Source: a virus
DNA: 24,261 nt
IMG/VR virus record: IMGVR_UViG_3300009172_000057
Location: 1 to 24,261 of that record
Strand: one strand, 5' to 3'
Of this stretch, positions 2,898 through 18,022 are shown piece after piece (within the stretch, counting starts at the first letter, position 1; each line of letters opens with the position of its first letter). Position numbers and translations under genes: made by a program. The notes under the pieces are model-generated. The model did not search any database. It was not told where the DNA came from and saw nothing but the letters and a program-made list of their open reading frames with translations.

Positions 2898-5533
2898 AAA
2901 AACATGGCTCAAATTATTAAATTAAAAAGAAGTACCACCGCAGGTAGTGCACCAACCACCTCAGACTTAGCAGTTGGTGAATTGGCAATTAATGTTCATG
3001 ATGGTAAAGTATTTTTACGAAGAAGTGGTTCAGTAGCCGGTGATACAATTGAAACTTTACTTTCAAATGAATATACTGGATCTGTAGATGTTCAAGGTGA
3101 TGTAACTGCAACCAACTTTATTGGTAATGGTTCGCAACTTTCAAACTTAACAATCGCGCAAACTGCAACTGTAAGACAAGCTTATGTAGGAACTACATGG
3201 AGTGTTGTTCACAACTTAGATACATTAAATCCAATTGTACAAGCATATGATGGAAATAGTTTTCAAATTATCCCACAAACATCTCGTATTACTGATGAAA
3301 ATACCGTAACACTTACATTCCCTACTTCTGTTAGTGGTTCTGCTGTAGTTGCTAAAGGTGGTCATATAGTTAGTGGTTCAATTGGAGCTAGTAACATTAA
3401 TGGATTCCCTGAACGAGTAGTAACATCATTAAACGCAGAAGGTGTAATTAGTGGTTCACTCCAAGTAACATTGGCAGGTGATGTAACTGGTACAGCTGCA
3501 GCAACAGTAATCGCTGAAGTTGATGGTGGTGATATATAATAATAAAATAATTGATATAATAATAAAAAAACAAGGATAAAACAAAATGATTATACACAGT
3601 CCCATACTTTCAGGTTCGCTAGCATTCGCAGAAGGAGCAACCCTTAACTCAAGTTTAATACCAAACGCATCAGCTTCCATAGATTTAGGTTCAGCTGCAT
3701 TCCCATTTAAAGATATTTATGTTTCTTCTGATACATTGAAACTTGGTGGATTGAAACTTGGTGGAGCAGGTGAAAGCCTTACTATCAAAAAAGCAGATAA
3801 TTCTCCAGCCGATATAGGTGCTAAATCTATTACTATTGGTGGTATTGGTGTTTCTAACTCTAAGAAATTCTCACTAAACACAAACAACAAAGTAACTTTA
3901 TTAGATGAAAACGATGATGTTGATACACTTGAGGTTAATGAAATTATCCTTAAAGATACATCAGGTGCTGGTAAAAATACTAAACTTACCAACGATGGTG
4001 GTAAATTTACTACTCAAGAAACAGCAGATAATGGTACTGTAACAAGTCAAGATGCAGAAGGTTCACTTTCTGGTTCATTTACTGGTTCTATCCAAGATGG
4101 TGAATTTAATGGTGAAGCTACTTTCAATAATGGTATGGCTGTAACTGGTACAACAGCACTTGCAGTAACAAATGTTTCTGGTCTTGCTTCCTTAGATGGA
4201 GGTGTAGATGTAGATGGAGCATTTACAGTTGCTAATACAAGTGGTAATGTTGTAACGAGTGGTACACTATCTGCCGGAGCAACAACAGTATCGGGACTTA
4301 CAATTGGCTCAACTGCAGTATCTTCTACGGCAGCTGAACTTAACTTATTAGATACTTCAGCAGCTGGAACAATAGTAAACTCCAAAGCTTTAATATATGG
4401 TTCAGGAGGAGAAGTAAACGCTACTAAACTACAAGTTGGTGGAGTTGATATTACTTCAACACCCGCTGAACTTAACTTATTAGATGGTGTGACTGGATTA
4501 GTTCAAGGAGATTTCACTAAATTGGCAGCAGTAACATCTACCGCAGCTCAAATTAATTATACTTCTGATGTAACATCAGGAATCCAAGGACAGATAAATG
4601 CTAAAGCATCACTCGCATCTCCTACCTTTACTGGAGCACCATTAACAACAACTCCAGCTTCAAATGATAGTTCAACTAAGATAGCATCTACTGCTTATGT
4701 ACAAGGAGAACTTACAGACTTAATTGGTGGTGCATCAGCAGCATTCGATACGTTATTAGAAATCTCTGCAAGTATTGCAAATGGAGATTCTGATGTAGTT
4801 GCCCTAACATCAACAGTTGGTGGAAAAATGACAAAAGCAAGTAACTTATCTGATTTAACAGATGCAGCAGCAGCAAGAGGAAACTTAGGATTGGCAATTG
4901 GTTCAAATGTACAAGCATATAACGCTACATTAGCAGCCGTTGCCGGTAGTACTTATAGTGGTGATGATGCTATTGTAACAGTTGGTACAATTGGAACAGG
5001 TGTTTGGCAAGGTACTGCAATTAACGCTACGTACTTAGATGGACAAAGTGGAACTAACACAGGCGATGAAACACTATCAAGTATAAATGGTTTAGGTATT
5101 ACAACTGTAGGTACAATTGATTCTGGAACATGGAATGGTACGGTAATTGCATCAGCATATTTAGATTCAGATACAGCACACCTAAGTGGAACACAAACAT
5201 TTAGTGGAGCAAAAACATTTACTCAGAATATTACGGCAAATGGGCTACTTAATGTTACAGGAACAGGTACATCAACCTTTACTTCTCACGTTAAAGCACA
5301 TTGTTTAGGTATTGGTATGGATCCATCTTATACAACAGGTGAAATCGTAGCTGCAGCAGATATCATAGCATACGCATCATCAGATAAGAGATTAAAAGAA
5401 AACATCAAACCAATTGAAAATCCATTAGGTAAAATTGCTCAAATAAGTGGTAATACTTTTGATTGGATTGAAAATTCTGAAGTACATTCTCATAAAGGTA
5501 GTGATATTGGAGTTATTGCTCAAGAAATTGAAG
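2409..5533 (+). repeat. Long-range DNA repeats shared by the two S74 fibre genes
   Basis: The two fibre genes share exact stretches: 29 bases at 2409-2437 and 5155-5183 (coding AYLDSDTAHL), and 26 bases at 2729-2754 and 5508-5533 (coding GVIAQEIE within the S74 domain). Conservation at DNA rather than only protein level points to recent duplication or recombination between the fibre ends. Confidence 0.85.
2904..3539 (+). CDS. Short fibre protein with anchor module, no chaperone domain
   Basis: This 211-residue protein starts 6 bases after the preceding gene, with GGGA upstream. Residues 1-36 (MAQIIKLKRST, then GELAINVHDGKVFLRR) are the fibre anchor module, nearly the same as that of the 586-residue fibre at 5772. 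Residues about 87-158 are a beta module ending AVVAKGGHIVSGS, which also occurs in the 586-residue fibre. The rest is low-complexity fibre sequence ending VDGGDI. Unlike its two neighbours it has no S74 domain. The next gene has the S74 domain but no anchor, so the two may act as proximal and distal parts of one fibre, or be a split gene; that pairing is inference. Role as a virion appendage protein is by family resemblance. Confidence 0.7.
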   Translation: MAQIIKLKRSTTAGSAPTTSDLAVGELAINVHDGKVFLRRSGSVAGDTIETLLSNEYTGSVDVQGDVTATNFIGNGSQLSNLTIAQTATVRQAYVGTTWSVVHNLDTLNPIVQAYDGNSFQIIPQTSRITDENTVTLTFPTSVSGSAVVAKGGHIVSGSIGASNINGFPERVVTSLNAEGVISGSLQVTLAGDVTGTAAATVIAEVDGGDI

Positions 5534-5670
5534 CAGTTTTACCAGAATTGGTAACAACTCGTGAAAATGGATACAAGGCCGTACAATATGATAAAGTTGT
5601 TGCTTTACTTATCGAGGCTGTTAAAGAACAACAAACTCAAATTGATGAGTTAAAAAGTAAATTAAACTAA
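3586..5670 (+). CDS. Large tail fibre protein with S74 chaperone domain, lacking the anchor module
   Basis: The start at 3586 follows AAGGATAAAAC. The N-terminus does not carry the MAQxIKLKR anchor of the neighbouring fibres. It goes straight into an LGSAAFPFKDIYVSS segment, a module that in other fibres follows the anchor. The body contains repeated AELNLLD motifs (about residues 248 and 296) and other beta modules such as SDTAHLSGTQTFSGA. Residues about 596-694 are an S74 intramolecular chaperone: SSDKRLKENI, GVIAQEIEAVLPELV, and a C-terminal helix rich in Gln, Glu and Lys. S599 and K604 fit the Ser-Lys pair. The protein most likely forms a trimeric distal fibre released from its chaperone after folding. 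The gene is followed by a strong hairpin terminator. Functional call is by family; the receptor is unknown. Confidence 0.85.
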   Translation: MIIHSPILSGSLAFAEGATLNSSLIPNASASIDLGSAAFPFKDIYVSSDTLKLGGLKLGGAGESLTIKKADNSPADIGAKSITIGGIGVSNSKKFSLNTNNKVTLLDENDDVDTLEVNEIILKDTSGAGKNTKLTNDGGKFTTQETADNGTVTSQDAEGSLSGSFTGSIQDGEFNGEATFNNGMAVTGTTALAVTNVSGLASLDGGVDVDGAFTVANTSGNVVTSGTLSAGATTVSGLTIGSTAVSSTAAELNLLDTSAAGTIVNSKALIYGSGGEVNATKLQVGGVDITSTPAELNLLDGVTGLVQGDFTKLAAVTSTAAQINYTSDVTSGIQGQINAKASLASPTFTGAPLTTTPASNDSSTKIASTAYVQGELTDLIGGASAAFDTLLEISASIANGDSDVVALTSTVGGKMTKASNLSDLTDAAAARGNLGLAIGSNVQAYNATLAAVAGSTYSGDDAIVTVGTIGTGVWQGTAINATYLDGQSGTNTGDETLSSINGLGITTVGTIDSGTWNGTVIASAYLDSDTAHLSGTQTFSGAKTFTQNITANGLLNVTGTGTSTFTSHVKAHCLGIGMDPSYTTGEIVAAADIIAYASSDKRLKENIKPIENPLGKIAQISGNTFDWIENSEVHSHKGSDIGVIAQEIEAVLPELVTTRENGYKAVQYDKVVALLIEAVKEQQTQIDELKSKLN

Positions 5671-8552: not shown

Positions 8553-9818
8553 ATGGCTACACTTACAGGTGGAGATACTTTATCACTAAACAATTTAAAA
8601 ACAGCAACAGGAGCCGGAGCAGCATCCATTTCTTCTGCAATGGGTTCAACCCCTTCAGCTGGAGCAAACATTAGTTTTTCATCGTTCGCAATCGATACGG
8701 TTGGTTCAATTTCAGGATACACATATCTTCCAGAAAACAATTCGGATACCTATACGTTGGGGTTTACTGGTGAAGGAGCTAATTTTACTACTAGGATAAA
8801 AACAGTATCAACTAACTTCACATGGTCAGTAGCAAGTGGAACTACCATAACTAAACAAGATGGTGATTACAATATAACAGTATCATCAGGAGAACAAACC
8901 GCTGATGGTTCTCAGACAGTAAGACAAGCTGATGCAACTAACACATTGAGAGTTGTATTTTCTGATAGTTACAATGATCATATTACTTCTGGTGCTGGAT
9001 ACGGTGCAAACAAAGATAAAACTATTTACGTTGTTGATACCTATGATGGTAATTCAACTCCATTATGTTTATCATTAGATACTCCGATTACTAAAGCTGA
9101 TGGTACAACAATTCAAGCTGGTGATATTCAAGAAGGCGATGTATTAAAAGGATTCCAAATTAATGGTTTAGATGAAGATTCTGATTCAAATTATTTACAA
9201 TGGAATAGTGATGCATTATCAAAAACAGCAGAAAATGTAACTGTAACTAACGTAGTATTCTCTTTCGCAATTAGAACTTATAATATTAATAATGGTGAGT
9301 TGGTAGTAACGGGAGAACACCCTATGTTAATTAAAGATGTAGATGATACTTTCAAATTCAAACCTGCACTTAGTATAGAAGTAGGTGATTCACTTATAAA
9401 AGAAGATAGTTCAGAAGTTAAAGTAACTTCAATTACACCGGCAGATGGTGATGTTGAGGTTGTATCAATTGATGTTGAAACTCAAGATACTTATTTAATT
9501 AATGGATATATAACTCACAATAAAGGAGCTAATTCACATACGGCATATGTACCTGCACAAGTAACAGGATTATCATATTCGGATCCTAATTTAACTTGGA
9601 CAAATGTAACTGATTTCGAAGATTATAAAGTTCAAATATCTACTGTTTCCAATTTCTCAAGTACAACGCATGATTATTCTAATTGGAGTAGTGCTGGTAT
9701 TGAAATAGGTGATAGTTTCTTTGGGTTAACTCAAGGTAATACTTACTATGCTAGAGTAGCTGGTAGAGATGCTGGTATATTAGGAACTTATTCATCTACA
9801 CTAACATTTGTTTTATAA
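8553..9818 (+). CDS. Virion structural protein with embedded intein-like Hint domain and C-terminal FN3-like domain
   Basis: The start follows ATAGGAATATACT. Residues 1-48 (GDTLSLNNLKTATG, NISFSSFAID) resemble the N-terminus of phage tail or fibre proteins, and 50-165 is a beta-rich domain. Residues 172-323 form a complete Hint module without a homing endonuclease: Cys172 in CLSLDTPITKADG with GDIQEGDVL, the TGEH motif at 253-256, and the closing block TYLINGYITHN ending His322-Asn323. Hint domains rearrange or cleave the chain at their ends. The residue after Asn323 is Lys, not Cys, Ser or Thr, which argues for a bacterial intein-like (BIL) type that cleaves, or splices poorly, rather than a classical intein. 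Residues about 333-421 look like a fibronectin type III domain (VTGLSYSDPNLTW, GNTYYARVAGRD). Start to finish it reads as a tail-surface protein; its appendage is unknown. Confidence 0.75.
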   Translation: MATLTGGDTLSLNNLKTATGAGAASISSAMGSTPSAGANISFSSFAIDTVGSISGYTYLPENNSDTYTLGFTGEGANFTTRIKTVSTNFTWSVASGTTITKQDGDYNITVSSGEQTADGSQTVRQADATNTLRVVFSDSYNDHITSGAGYGANKDKTIYVVDTYDGNSTPLCLSLDTPITKADGTTIQAGDIQEGDVLKGFQINGLDEDSDSNYLQWNSDALSKTAENVTVTNVVFSFAIRTYNINNGELVVTGEHPMLIKDVDDTFKFKPALSIEVGDSLIKEDSSEVKVTSITPADGDVEVVSIDVETQDTYLINGYITHNKGANSHTAYVPAQVTGLSYSDPNLTWTNVTDFEDYKVQISTVSNFSSTTHDYSNWSSAGIEIGDSFFGLTQGNTYYARVAGRDAGILGTYSSTLTFVL

Positions 9819-13488: not shown

Positions 13489-13977
13489 ATGGCAGAAGTA
13501 TTAGAATTCAACGACATGTTCTACACGAACTTCGAACCGAAGATGAAGAACAGATACATCATGGAAATTGATGGTATCGCTTCATATTTGATTAAAACGG
13601 CAAATAGACCTTCTATTTCGTTTGAAGTTGTAACACTAGATCATATTAACGTTAAGAGAAAACTAAAGGGTAAAGGTGAATGGCAAGATATTGAAATCAC
13701 TTTATTTGACCCAATCGTTCCAAGTGGAGCACAACAAGTAATGGAATGGGTACGTTTATCTCATGAATCTTTAACAGGACGTGATGGGTATGCTGATTTC
13801 TATAAAAAAGATATTGATATCTATATGTTGGGACCAGTTGGTGATAAAATTGAAAATTGGAAAATAAAAGGAGCATTTATAAACAATGCAGTATTTAATG
13901 ATTTAGATTGGGCATCAAATGACCCATCTGATATTACATTAACTCTTTCTTACGATTACGCAATATTAGAATACTAA
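13489..13977 (+). CDS. Tail tube protein (T4 gp19-like)
   Basis: At 162 residues it is almost the same length as T4 gp19 (163). Hexameric rings of the family stack into the inner tube that carries DNA. The sequence fits the family along its length: FNDMFYTNFEPKMKNRYIMEI, the ANRPSISFEVVTLDHINVKRK region (about 40-60), WQDIEITLFDP, and a closing SDITLTLSYDYAILEY strand. The start follows ATAGGAGAATAAAAAA, a good ribosome binding site. A strong hairpin terminator lies 30 bases after the stop. The gene follows the sheath, the usual late-tail order, and precedes the assembly chaperone and tape measure. Confidence 0.93.
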   Translation: MAEVLEFNDMFYTNFEPKMKNRYIMEIDGIASYLIKTANRPSISFEVVTLDHINVKRKLKGKGEWQDIEITLFDPIVPSGAQQVMEWVRLSHESLTGRDGYADFYKKDIDIYMLGPVGDKIENWKIKGAFINNAVFNDLDWASNDPSDITLTLSYDYAILEY

Positions 13978-14099: not shown

Positions 14100-14858
14100 A
14101 TGGCAAATTATGATTTCCCAACAGAAATTATCTCGTTACCATCTCAAGGTAAATGTTATTCAGAAGATAATCCCCTATCAAAAGGAACATTAGAGATTAA
14201 ATACATGACAGCTAGAGAAGAAGAAATCTTAGCTTCACAGAATCTTGTACGGAAGGGGGTGGTGATAGATAAGTTATTCGAATCAATTATAGTTGAAAAG
14301 GATGTAAACATTGATGATATTGTATTAGGGGATAAAAATGCAATTCTACTCGCAACTCGTGTATTAGGTTATGGACCTGAATATAAGATAGAGATGACTG
14401 ATTCATTGGGTGAACCACAATCGGTTACTATTGATTTAGGAGCAGTTCAAACCAAAGAAGTTGATGTTGAATTATTATCATCAGAAAACCGATATGAATT
14501 CACTACACCATTTGGAAAGAACAAATTAGAATTTAAAATTCTAACTCACGGTGATGAGAAAAAAATTGATGCAGATATTAAAGCATTGAGTAGATTAAAT
14601 AAAGGTGGTGTATCCGCAGAACTAACTACAAGATATCGTTTTATGATTCTTTCAGTAGATGGTAATTCCGATACTCAATCAATTACAAGTTTTATTAATA
14701 ACAAGTTCATTACTCGTGATACCAAAGCATTTAGAGAATATATTGCTAAGATAACACCCGATATCAATATGGAGTTTGATTTTGAGGATGAGCAAACGGG
14801 AGAAACGGAGGTGCGTTCTATCCCAATGGGCGTAGGGTTTTTTTGGCCTACCGAGTAA
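14100..14858 (+). CDS. Tail assembly chaperone, T4 gp26-like (upstream frame of a frameshift pair)
   Basis: This 252-residue protein matches the T4/cyanophage gp26 baseplate-hub annotated family: FPTEIISLPSQGKCYSEDNP (4-23), LEIKYMTAREEEILASQN (about 31-48), and a C-terminal FFWPTE. By position (between tube and tape measure) and by the overlapping second frame it behaves like a G/GT-type tail assembly chaperone, which binds the tape measure until the tube polymerises. It ends TAA at 14856. Just before the stop the mRNA reads GGG TTT TTT TGG, a seven-T run (14838-14844) where ribosomes could slip into the frame that continues to 15072. An internal GGAGGTG at 14807-14813 lies 24 bases upstream of the run. 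The start has no clear Shine-Dalgarno sequence. Hub subunit versus chaperone is not settled by sequence alone. Confidence 0.8.
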   Translation: MANYDFPTEIISLPSQGKCYSEDNPLSKGTLEIKYMTAREEEILASQNLVRKGVVIDKLFESIIVEKDVNIDDIVLGDKNAILLATRVLGYGPEYKIEMTDSLGEPQSVTIDLGAVQTKEVDVELLSSENRYEFTTPFGKNKLEFKILTHGDEKKIDADIKALSRLNKGGVSAELTTRYRFMILSVDGNSDTQSITSFINNKFITRDTKAFREYIAKITPDINMEFDFEDEQTGETEVRSIPMGVGFFWPTE

Positions 14859-15072
14859 CTACTCTGTTTTACTTCATACACAAATTTTTGAACTCTGTTA
14901 TTATGGTAATGGATTCACTCAAGAAGGAATATACAGATTACCAGTCCATCTAAGAATGTTCTATTATAGACAATTATCAGATGCAAAGAAAAAGGAATCT
15001 GATGAAAACAAAAAAGCACAAAAAAAACAAGGTCCTTCACCAAAAGGTCCAAGTGTAAGAGTGAGGAAGTAA
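14836..15072 (+). CDS. C-terminal extension of the tail assembly chaperone, reached by frameshift
   Basis: This 78-codon open frame overlaps the end of the gp26-like gene. It has no ATG, GTG or TTG before an ATG at 14956, yet the region upstream of that ATG looks like real protein: FELCYYGNGFTQEG then IYRLPVHLRMFYYRQL. That Y-G-x-G-F-T...P-V-H-L-R...YY pattern is the conserved core of the second chaperone segment in similar phages. The frame is +1 (equal to -2) relative to the upstream gene, and the two meet at the T7 run 14838-14844. A shift there gives a fusion of about 323-324 residues. The last 30 residues are very Lys-rich (KKKESDENKKAQKKQ). The stop codon lies inside the terminator hairpin at 15060. 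The alternative, a 39-residue protein from ATG 14956, would lose the conserved part. Confidence 0.75.
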   Translation, partial: GFFGLPSNYSVLLHTQIFELCYYGNGFTQEGIYRLPVHLRMFYYRQLSDAKKKESDENKKAQKKQGPSPKGPSVRVRK

Positions 15073-15130: not shown

Positions 15131-15370
15131 ATGAAAATAACAACAGAACAGTTTGAATATATGAAATCTAAACCAGCCTTTCAAAATGAAGGTATAGTTG
15201 GTGCTATATTCAATAGATTACTTAAAAAAAAACTAAAGAACAATACTGATTTTAAAAAAGCAGTAGATTCTTTTGATTCTGCACAGGATAAAATGAGAAA
15301 ATCAATTATTGATGCAGAAAAATCAGGAGTTAAAATTCCAAAAGAACTAAAGAAATACGCTGGATTATAA
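15131..15370 (+). CDS. Small basic protein before the tape measure, unknown function
   Basis: This 79-residue protein starts after a TTGGAGAA ribosome binding site. It is helical and Lys-rich (LLKKKLKNNTDFKKA, KIPKELKKYAGL) with no membrane segment, signal peptide or recognisable motif. The tape measure ATG follows 3 bases after its stop, so the two are translationally linked. It follows a terminator and a promoter-like element, so this pair probably forms its own transcript. A role in tape measure handling or baseplate-tube assembly would fit the position but is only inference. Confidence 0.65.
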   Translation: MKITTEQFEYMKSKPAFQNEGIVGAIFNRLLKKKLKNNTDFKKAVDSFDSAQDKMRKSIIDAEKSGVKIPKELKKYAGL

Positions 15371-15373
15371 TAG

Positions 15374-18022
15374 ATGGCAAAATCTAAGGCAGAAATTCAA
15401 AAAGAATATAATGAGGCTTTAAAAGTATCTCAATCATTAACAGGTGCGTTAAATAAAATGATTGATAATACTGAGAAATCTCAAAAAAAAGTGTCTGATG
15501 CTCAAAAGGAATTTAATAATAGATTAAAAAGTATAAATGGTAGTGCAACTGATTATGAATCTACTCAAGATGCAATCTTAGCATTAGAAAAACAAAAAGC
15601 TGGATTATCTAAACGATATTTTGGTGCAAATAAAAAACTTCTTCCACAAAAACAAAAAGAAGTTCAAGCAAATATTGATATCTTATCTTCAGAAGCAGAA
15701 AGGGTAAAGTTAGTTAACGAATTAGATTCCAATGCACATAGCTTGGCAAACTCCTTAAATGGTTCATTGGATGGATTACTTAGTGGATTGGATGAAATAC
15801 CTGGAATAGGTAAAGGATTATCAAAATTAGCATCAGGCCCTATAAATAACTTAAAAGGGGCATTTTCAGATTCAGCCAAAGTATTCACAACAAAATTTTC
15901 AAGCGCTCTTGCTAACGGTAAAGGTGGTATGGCGGCATTCGCCAAAGCTGGTGGAGCTTCTATGAAAGTATTGAGTGGGTTTCTTTTATCTCCCGTGGGA
16001 GCAATAGCTGCTCTTACTGCAGTTCTAGCTATAGGACTCAAAGCATTCGTAGAAATGGAAAAAGGAGCTAAAGCTTTCAGAGATGAGACTGGGTTATTAA
16101 ACTCTCAAATGGATGGTATGGATACTACCATAAATTCTGTTTATATGGAAACTGTGGGATTGGGAGCATCTATGGAAGATGTTGGTAAAAACGCAGCAGC
16201 TTTTGTAAAGGAATTTGGGGGAATAGAAAAACCATCAGAAAATGTTATAAAATCTTTAACAGTAATGAACAAAAACTTCGGCGTTGCCGTTGGTGATGCT
16301 GCTAAAGTAAACAAAGCCTTTCAAAACATGGGAGGATTATCGGCAGATGTGGCTCAAGCTAATGCTGAATCGGTAGTTTCACTTGCACAACAAAACGGAG
16401 TTGCTCCATCTAAAGTAATGGCTGATATAGCTGATTCAGCCGAAGAAGCTCAAGGATTCTTTAGAGGAAATATACAAGCTTTAGGAGCTGCAGCAATTAA
16501 CGCAGCAAAAATGGGTTCTTCTTTAAAAGAAGCAGCTAAAGTATCACGTGGATTACTTAATTATCAAGATAGTGTTACCAGCGAAATGGAAGCTAGTGCT
16601 ATTCTTGGTACAAATCTAAACTTCTCTCAATCTCGTTATCTTGCAGCTACTGGTGATGTAGTTGGTGCACAAGCATCAATGGTTAAGCAACTTAGAAATA
16701 GAGTTGATTTAGATAAAGCTAGTGTATTTGAAATAGAAGCTATGGAAAAGGCTACTGGAATGCAATTTTCTCAAATACAAAACATGGCCAGATTACAAAA
16801 ATTAAATCTTGGTTTAGATAAAGATAGAAATAAGGTATTACAAGAAGCTATAAAAGGTGGATTGGATATATCCAAAATGTCAGGTGATGAAATAAAAGCT
16901 AAAACCGAAGTACTTGCATTGCAAAAAGAGACACAAACTAGAATAGGTGCTATGAGTGATACTCTTAAAGGATTCGGTGCTAAATTAACACAAATGTTTT
17001 TACCAATTGGTGAATTTTTAGTAGGTGGTTTAGAATCTGCAATGCCTGTAATATCAACTGTTTTTAATGCTATTAGTAAAGGTATATCGGCTATTGGTAG
17101 CTTTGCAAAAAGTATATTTAAGGTATTTAGTAAAATTTTTAAAGAAGCAATTTCTCCACTTGCATCAGAATTAAAAGAGCCTTTTGAAGCTGTACAACCT
17201 ATTATTTCAAGTATGTTCGGTGGTATGATGAAAGGTTTTAAAGTTCTTGGTAGTTTCGCAAAATCAACTTTACTTCCTGTATTTTCAGTACTTGGTAAAG
17301 TTCTTAAAATAGCGTTTATGCCAATTACTGCCGCAGTAACTGTAATAAAGAGTATGTATGCATTGGTTAGTGCATTGGTAACCGATGGATTAGGTGGATT
17401 TATAAGTAAAGCACAAGAAATGGGCCCTCTTCTAAGTGGTATTTCTGCTACCGTAGGTATTATAGCAGCCGCGTGGGTAGTCTCTATTGTACCATCCATC
17501 ATAGCAGCTGGGGTAGGATTGGTAACAACTATGGTTCCTGCATTGATAGCAGGGGCGGGTTCCCTTGTAACTATGGCTGGAGCCGCAATTGGTTGGGCTA
17601 TTTCTATGGCAACTGGTGCAATTGCTGCAATATCAGCCGCATCCGCTGCTACATTAGGAATCGGTGCATTAGCAATTGCTGGAGGTATTGCTGTTGCCGC
17701 AGTTGCTATGAACTCGGCTACCGCAGATGCAGAAAAGTCAATACCAGCACCTGCTGTAGAAGATGGTATTGTTAAGGATAGACAAATTGTAAGTACACAT
17801 CCTGATGATTATTTAATTGCAACTAAGGATCCAGGTGGATTAGCATCTGCTATGAGCGGTGGTGGAATGGATATGAGTGGAGTAATAGCCGAACTTAAAG
17901 AATTAAAAGCAGCATTTGTAGCTAATAAAGATGTGTATATAGATAACGAAAAAATAACTTCTCGGATTTCAAAAACTCAAGAGAAGAGTAATATTAATCA
18001 GTTTGGAATAATGGGAGCTTAA
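15374..18022 (+). CDS. Tail tape measure protein
   Basis: At 882 residues it is the longest gene between tube and baseplate genes, as expected for a tape measure. The protein fills the tail lumen and sets tail length; at about 0.15 nm per residue it predicts a tail near 130 nm. The N-terminal 120 residues are helical coiled coil (QKKVSDAQKEFNNRLK). A hydrophobic stretch lies at about 200-226 (LSPVGAIAALTAVLAIGL). A long Ala/Gly/Ile-rich region with several potential membrane-spanning segments lies at about 684-780, typical of proteins that help DNA cross the inner membrane. The C-terminus has VEDGIVKDRQIVSTHPDDYL, commonly seen near tape measure ends. It starts at ATG 15374, 3 bases after the previous stop, and the next gene begins 1 base after its stop. 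Confidence 0.93.
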   Translation: MAKSKAEIQKEYNEALKVSQSLTGALNKMIDNTEKSQKKVSDAQKEFNNRLKSINGSATDYESTQDAILALEKQKAGLSKRYFGANKKLLPQKQKEVQANIDILSSEAERVKLVNELDSNAHSLANSLNGSLDGLLSGLDEIPGIGKGLSKLASGPINNLKGAFSDSAKVFTTKFSSALANGKGGMAAFAKAGGASMKVLSGFLLSPVGAIAALTAVLAIGLKAFVEMEKGAKAFRDETGLLNSQMDGMDTTINSVYMETVGLGASMEDVGKNAAAFVKEFGGIEKPSENVIKSLTVMNKNFGVAVGDAAKVNKAFQNMGGLSADVAQANAESVVSLAQQNGVAPSKVMADIADSAEEAQGFFRGNIQALGAAAINAAKMGSSLKEAAKVSRGLLNYQDSVTSEMEASAILGTNLNFSQSRYLAATGDVVGAQASMVKQLRNRVDLDKASVFEIEAMEKATGMQFSQIQNMARLQKLNLGLDKDRNKVLQEAIKGGLDISKMSGDEIKAKTEVLALQKETQTRIGAMSDTLKGFGAKLTQMFLPIGEFLVGGLESAMPVISTVFNAISKGISAIGSFAKSIFKVFSKIFKEAISPLASELKEPFEAVQPIISSMFGGMMKGFKVLGSFAKSTLLPVFSVLGKVLKIAFMPITAAVTVIKSMYALVSALVTDGLGGFISKAQEMGPLLSGISATVGIIAAAWVVSIVPSIIAAGVGLVTTMVPALIAGAGSLVTMAGAAIGWAISMATGAIAAISAASAATLGIGALAIAGGIAVAAVAMNSATADAEKSIPAPAVEDGIVKDRQIVSTHPDDYLIATKDPGGLASAMSGGGMDMSGVIAELKELKAAFVANKDVYIDNEKITSRISKTQEKSNINQFGIMGA

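Follow-up and report, generated by a model that had tools for sequence, protein, structure and literature searches.

A tail assembly chaperone gene of the T4 gp26/gp51 family with a predicted +1 frameshift on a T run in a contractile-tailed phage

The DNA analysed here (the window) comprises the 24,261 bases at positions 1 to 24,261 of the IMG/VR virus record IMGVR_UViG_3300009172_000057, a single viral contig that is a fragment of a contractile-tailed phage genome. On its plus strand, the gene at 14100..14858 encodes a protein of 252 amino acids, G, the short form of a putative tail assembly chaperone. The end of this gene overlaps a stop-to-stop open reading frame (ORF) of 78 codons, T, at 14836..15072 (plus strand, in the +1 frame relative to G, which is equivalent to −2), and the first ATG, GTG or TTG in the T frame is the ATG at 14956. 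In the 0 frame the overlap reads GGG TTT TTT TGG CCT ACC GAG TAA. The two frames meet at GGG TTT TTT TGG (14835-14846, plus strand), which holds a run of seven T's (14838-14844), and the sequence GGAGGTG lies at 14807-14813, 24 bases before this run. Its GGAGG part (14807..14811, plus strand, 26 nt upstream of the run) resembles a Shine-Dalgarno (SD) element and is conserved across related loci. An earlier note, made from the sequence alone, had described these features, and all are present as it claimed. It had further proposed a chaperone with a frameshifted extension, and homology, the conserved frame and the slip-site codons support this. We propose, with a probability of roughly 0.83, that the locus encodes a G/GT tail assembly chaperone pair of the T4 gp26/gp51 family in which the long form GT is made by a +1 slip on UUU in the T run. 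The predicted GT, read by stepping one base at the slip site, would span 14100..15072 (plus strand) and count 323 amino acids if the shift is +1. This proposal builds on the order of the genes, on the homology found for G and for T, on a conserved frame and slip site, and on codon choices that fit a +1 shift.

The G gene lies between the genes for the tail tube and the tape measure protein, as expected for the G/GT class. Along the window the order is sheath (11063), tube, chaperone gene, a 79-codon ORF and tape measure. The upstream gene (13489..13977, plus strand) encodes a gp19-like tail tube protein (PF06841, E=3.6e-10; phrog_4542) and the downstream gene (15374..18022, plus strand) the tape measure protein (phrog_167, E=1.5e-7). 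G itself matches phrog_150 (E=1.9e-7), the family of both T4 gp26 and gp51, which span positions 14-235 and 13-280, respectively, of the 282-position profile. A Pfam search with the window G alone gave no match; PF12322 matches T4 gp26 and gp51 as well as relatives of the window G (L003, L005), with the homologues from phage SP-15 and a 484-kb phage among its matches. NCBIfam and PDB sequence searches gave nothing useful. The AlphaFold2 model of G, which was folded separately from T, has a predicted local distance difference test score (pLDDT) of 91.7, and Foldseek matched it in BFVD to gp26-type proteins of SP-15, T4-like and Campylobacter phages; a fold search of the PDB gave no significant match.

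According to a review, the G/GT shift occurs widely, T4 being the exception; Mu shifts by −2 and HSTV-2 very likely by +1 (PMC5009743). In a review of the T4 tail from 2010, gp51 was still described as essential and of unknown function (PMC3004832). The T4 exception has since been resolved by Vladimirov, Gautam and Davidson (Virology 2022, as cited in PMC10885494 and PMC12846349), who recognised gp26 and gp51 as T4-like tail assembly chaperones. We therefore do not present the T4 chaperone link as a discovery, since the 2022 paper, as those two articles cite it, precedes it. The earlier note had argued that the gene usually annotated as the gp26 'hub' is really the chaperone in this lineage; the label is indeed misleading, but the restriction to this lineage falls with the published role of gp26/gp51.

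The arrangement is not confined to the window, and its conservation exceeds by far what chance would give. Homologues found with tblastn in Flavobacterium phage immuto, Microcystis phage Mel-JY01, the 484-kb phage, Streptococcus phage GXN1, Bacillus phage SP-15 and Listeria phage LIS04 each have a +1-frame ORF that extends 66-89 codons beyond the stop of the first gene. At least 599 IMG/VR relatives were confirmed, of which 80 were kept for analysis, and about 30 further loci of SP-15 type and 14 from microbial assemblies were added; wherever the contig is long enough, these loci have the same G and T arrangement. Searching with nothing but the 15-mer GGGTTTTTTTGGCCT brought up 80 contigs, with G in 76 and both G and T in 75, the 76th stopping at the contig edge. 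A sequencing error or a decayed gene end might be suspected in a single viral contig fragment, and is refuted to the point of being negligible by the G/T pairing kept in about 130 related loci from very diverse phages, including the isolate genomes of SP-15, immuto and Mel-JY01. Every intact homologue of the +1 clade keeps the extension as an open +1 frame, and conservation of the overlapping frame is among the checks that the earlier note had suggested. Judged by how mismatches fall on its codon positions 1, 2 and 3 in the +1 frame (3964, 2657 and 7838), the extension is under purifying selection. The 595-kb phage LR756511 (L007) lies outside the +1-clade pattern: its G homologue has a longer 0-frame tail, followed by a T-like ORF in the +2 (−1) frame.

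Could T be translated on its own, either from a start codon of its own or by re-initiation once G has ended? The Mel-JY01 record annotates it as a separate gene, from a TTG, and in 48 of 105 loci the T frame contains some start codon no later than the slip. In 44 of the 105, the window among them, no start occurs until more than 10 codons past the slip; moreover, the same T domain is fused in frame to G in T4 gp51, and the slip-site codons are under selection. A separate T is thus extremely unlikely. The prediction in the earlier note that annotation would overlook the extension held for LIS04 and GXN1, where nothing is listed, and in part for immuto and SP-15, where only the last 36-39 codons are annotated; it failed for Mel-JY01, which lists a separate hypothetical gene. 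Given by locus, the public records for L001 (3336-3446), L005 (3321-3440) and L006 (3207-3446) show just the last 36-39 T codons as a hypothetical gene, or no gene.

Neither Pfam nor PHROG gave a match for the extension by itself, and its homology emerged only through alignments and profile comparison with hhalign. The +1 window type matched the +1 SP-15 type with 97.3% probability, the +1 type matched the −1 cyanophage type with 95.6% (P 1e-8), and the −1 type matched the C-terminus of gp51 with 97.6% (P 5e-12). By these profile comparisons the extension is the C-terminal T domain, of the same domain family across the +1 types, the −1 types and gp51. AlphaFold2 models T as three helices (pLDDT 83.9).

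The earlier note had left the shift as either +1 or −2. The frame was correct, and between the two the comparative evidence favours +1 on four lines of synonymous-codon and re-pairing evidence; the T7 run of the window alone cannot decide. A +1 re-pairing of UUU is possible at 80/80 window-clade and 21/25 SP-15-clade loci, and the four SP-15-clade loci without UUU-Y all have CCC-A. CCC and UUU are reported to be the next most slippery codons at the +1 site of prfB (PMC10885494). In the window clade TTT encodes the first Phe in 79/80 loci and the second in 77/77, against a background of 75%, and the two codons carry 1.3-1.7 bits of information, compared with mostly 0.01-0.3 bits at upstream flanking third positions. 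In the SP-15 clade UUU is often followed by an Arg codon, which is CGN in 18/18 cases against 59/280 (21%) of background Arg codons, which fits +1 because re-pairing from UUU to UUC needs a C after UUU. Lastly, the base before the run is T in none of the 71 window-clade loci that have the option (39.6 expected) and in 63/63 loci of the −1 sister clade. The absence of T would block both −1 slippage and tandem −2 slippage, and the canonical −1 G/GT signature (−1 frame, X XXY YYZ heptamer) is lacking. A +1 subclade (L240, L243, L244, L245, L249, L250) has lost UUU-Y at the junction and has CCC AGT in common instead, likely an alternative +1 slip codon.

The same chaperone pair might instead be produced by a −2 slip on the T run, with one Phe more, a shift known for Mu (PMC5009743). 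Re-pairing by −2 is possible at 76/80 window-clade loci, the window itself included, where the T7 run permits it and both Phe codons are TTT, and at 14/25 SP-15-clade loci. It is impossible or poor at L049, L001, L082, L003 and 11/25 SP-15-clade loci (TTC TTT CGT and others); under −2 the CGN rule for the Arg codon that follows would be meaningless, and the non-T base before the run excludes tandem −2 slippage. A −2 shift is therefore unlikely. Slippage of RNA polymerase on the T run, by which some mRNAs would have one T fewer or two more, is in keeping with the seven T's of most window-clade loci. Runs are at most 6 T in 24/25 SP-15-clade loci and only 3-4 T in four window-clade loci whose T frame is unchanged, and the CGN rule is a ribosomal signal, so that transcriptional slippage seems very unlikely.

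Several observations nevertheless count against a +1 shift in a chaperone of this family. As said, 76/80 window-clade sites permit −2 re-pairing as well, and the first Phe codon is also constrained (79/80 TTT), a restriction that a single +1 slip on the second codon would not call for. Compared directly, the T domains of the +1 families and gp51 match weakly (13-23% probability), and the link runs via the −1 family. The HK97 chaperone (2ob9) was only a weak fold match (E=2.4). In addition, the chance values and codon counts given here take the loci as independent and ignore their relatedness, against which stands the low information at the upstream flanking third positions.

The upstream GGAGG is a second conserved signal. 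It occurs within 45 nt upstream in 53/80 window-clade loci, against 3.8 expected from synonymous resampling of codons, mostly starting at exactly −31, and neither of two control stretches within the gene contains it. In more distant +1 loci the affinity for the anti-SD sequence, at about −33 to −27, is weaker but significant. In the −1 clade GGAGG stands at −16 in 42/87 loci, a spacing close to that of −1 stimulators such as dnaX. The +1-clade element, 26 nt from the run, should be beyond the reach of a ribosome on the slip site; conceivably it might act by pausing of the ribosome before the slip or by pausing of the following ribosome. We rejected it as the SD of a T start in the window, where the +1-frame stop TAG at 14833 intervenes. 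A stimulator of the type of release factor 2 (RF2), an SD-like element about 3 nt before the slip codon, was not found, and SD-like 4-mers occur within 15 nt in only 19/80 loci. A downstream RNA stem-loop was not apparent (z=+0.7 in the window, mean −0.86 over 104 loci), and alifold gave no structure for −40..+60. The odds are about even that this myophage chaperone clade uses a new class of bacterial +1 recoding signal: a UUU (or CCC) slip ahead of an ordinary sense codon that needs neither a stop codon nor an SD close by, and that has a conserved GGAGG about one ribosome length upstream which might act via pausing or ribosome queuing. On this reading, the −1 sister clade and this clade shift in opposite directions at one and the same pair of codons, with opposite selection on the base before the run.

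Under the proposed +1 shift, most ribosomes would stop at 14858 and yield G. A minority would slip +1 with tRNA-Phe on the P-site UUU in GGG UUU UUU UGG, re-pairing with the overlapping UUU, and continue in the +1 frame to make GT, a product of about 323 amino acids that includes the T domain. If the pair works as in lambda, the tape measure protein would be coated by many copies of G and few of GT, with T recruiting the tube protein. That the shift happens, its rate and the binding partners are inferred.

In P-SSM2, S-PM2, phiM12, PhiW-14 and Vi01, the T domain occupies the corresponding position in the −1 frame. In the tree of G, the +1 loci form one side of a branch (support 99/99) and the −1 loci another (97/82), with T4 gp26/gp51 adjoining the −1 group. 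By tree and profiles, this is a single chaperone family that appears to make its long form by three routes, a +1 shift, a −1 shift and two genes. Campylobacter phage CP220 (L108/L137/L129) also has separate short and long chaperone genes, possibly by independent duplication; its placement in the tree is unsure because the deep branches are long. In RB43 (L101) the gp51 and gp26 genes overlap on the same strand. This kind of system is already known; what appear to be new are the forward direction in a large clade, the switch in direction with opposite codon selection, and the displaced GGAGG. Our literature search, outside which subscription papers lay, found no report of a +1 mode in the T4 gp26/gp51 chaperone family. 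A chaperone family that would reach one T domain by a forward slip, a backward slip or gene duplication makes the evolution of frameshift direction testable within a single gene. Little is known of bacterial +1 sites at sense codons, and the +1 clade offers more than 100 natural variants. The 'baseplate hub' label is corrected as well, and T domains that are missing or truncated in phage records are restored.

The best match to the window in cellular collections was a contig of a Saprospiraceae metagenome-assembled genome (71%), and a Bacteroidota host is therefore likely. The 79-codon ORF between the chaperone and tape measure genes (15131-15370) has no recognisable relative downstream of the homologues. 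Elsewhere in the window, a structural-looking ORF of 421 amino acids (8553-9818) contains a Hint/intein-like stretch (weak matches to PT-HINT and Intein_splicing) and ends in ITHNKG, and both ORFs 1386-2897 and 3586-5670 terminate in a Peptidase_S74 chaperone-of-endosialidase domain.

Among known systems, T4 gp26/gp51 share the G family with the window, gp26 being G only and gp51 being G plus a T domain linked to that of the window. T4 uses two genes without frameshift, whereas the window phage would use one gene and a shift. The chaperones of T4-like cyanophages, pelagiphages and Sinorhizobium phage (P-SSM2, S-PM2, phiM12) have the G family, the T domain and the Phe-Phe position in common with the window; these types use the −1 frame at T TTT TTC with GGAGG 16 nt upstream, whereas the +1 clade has no T before the run and GGAGG 31 nt upstream. 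Lambda G/GT likewise has short and long forms between tube and tape measure genes and a shift near the end of G, a likeness of arrangement, but its shift is −1 at a different slip site. The tail assembly chaperone of HSTV-2 shares the order tube, chaperone, tape measure and very likely a +1 shift (PMC5009743). It belongs to phrog_12163/14268 and lacks a phrog_150 match, unlike the window G, and was therefore rejected as a homologue. Finally, at the +1 site of prfB (RF2) too, a pyrimidine codon slips in the P site onto one that overlaps it, and UUU and CCC both work there; in contrast to prfB, the A site of the window holds a sense codon rather than a stop, and an SD 3 nt upstream is lacking.
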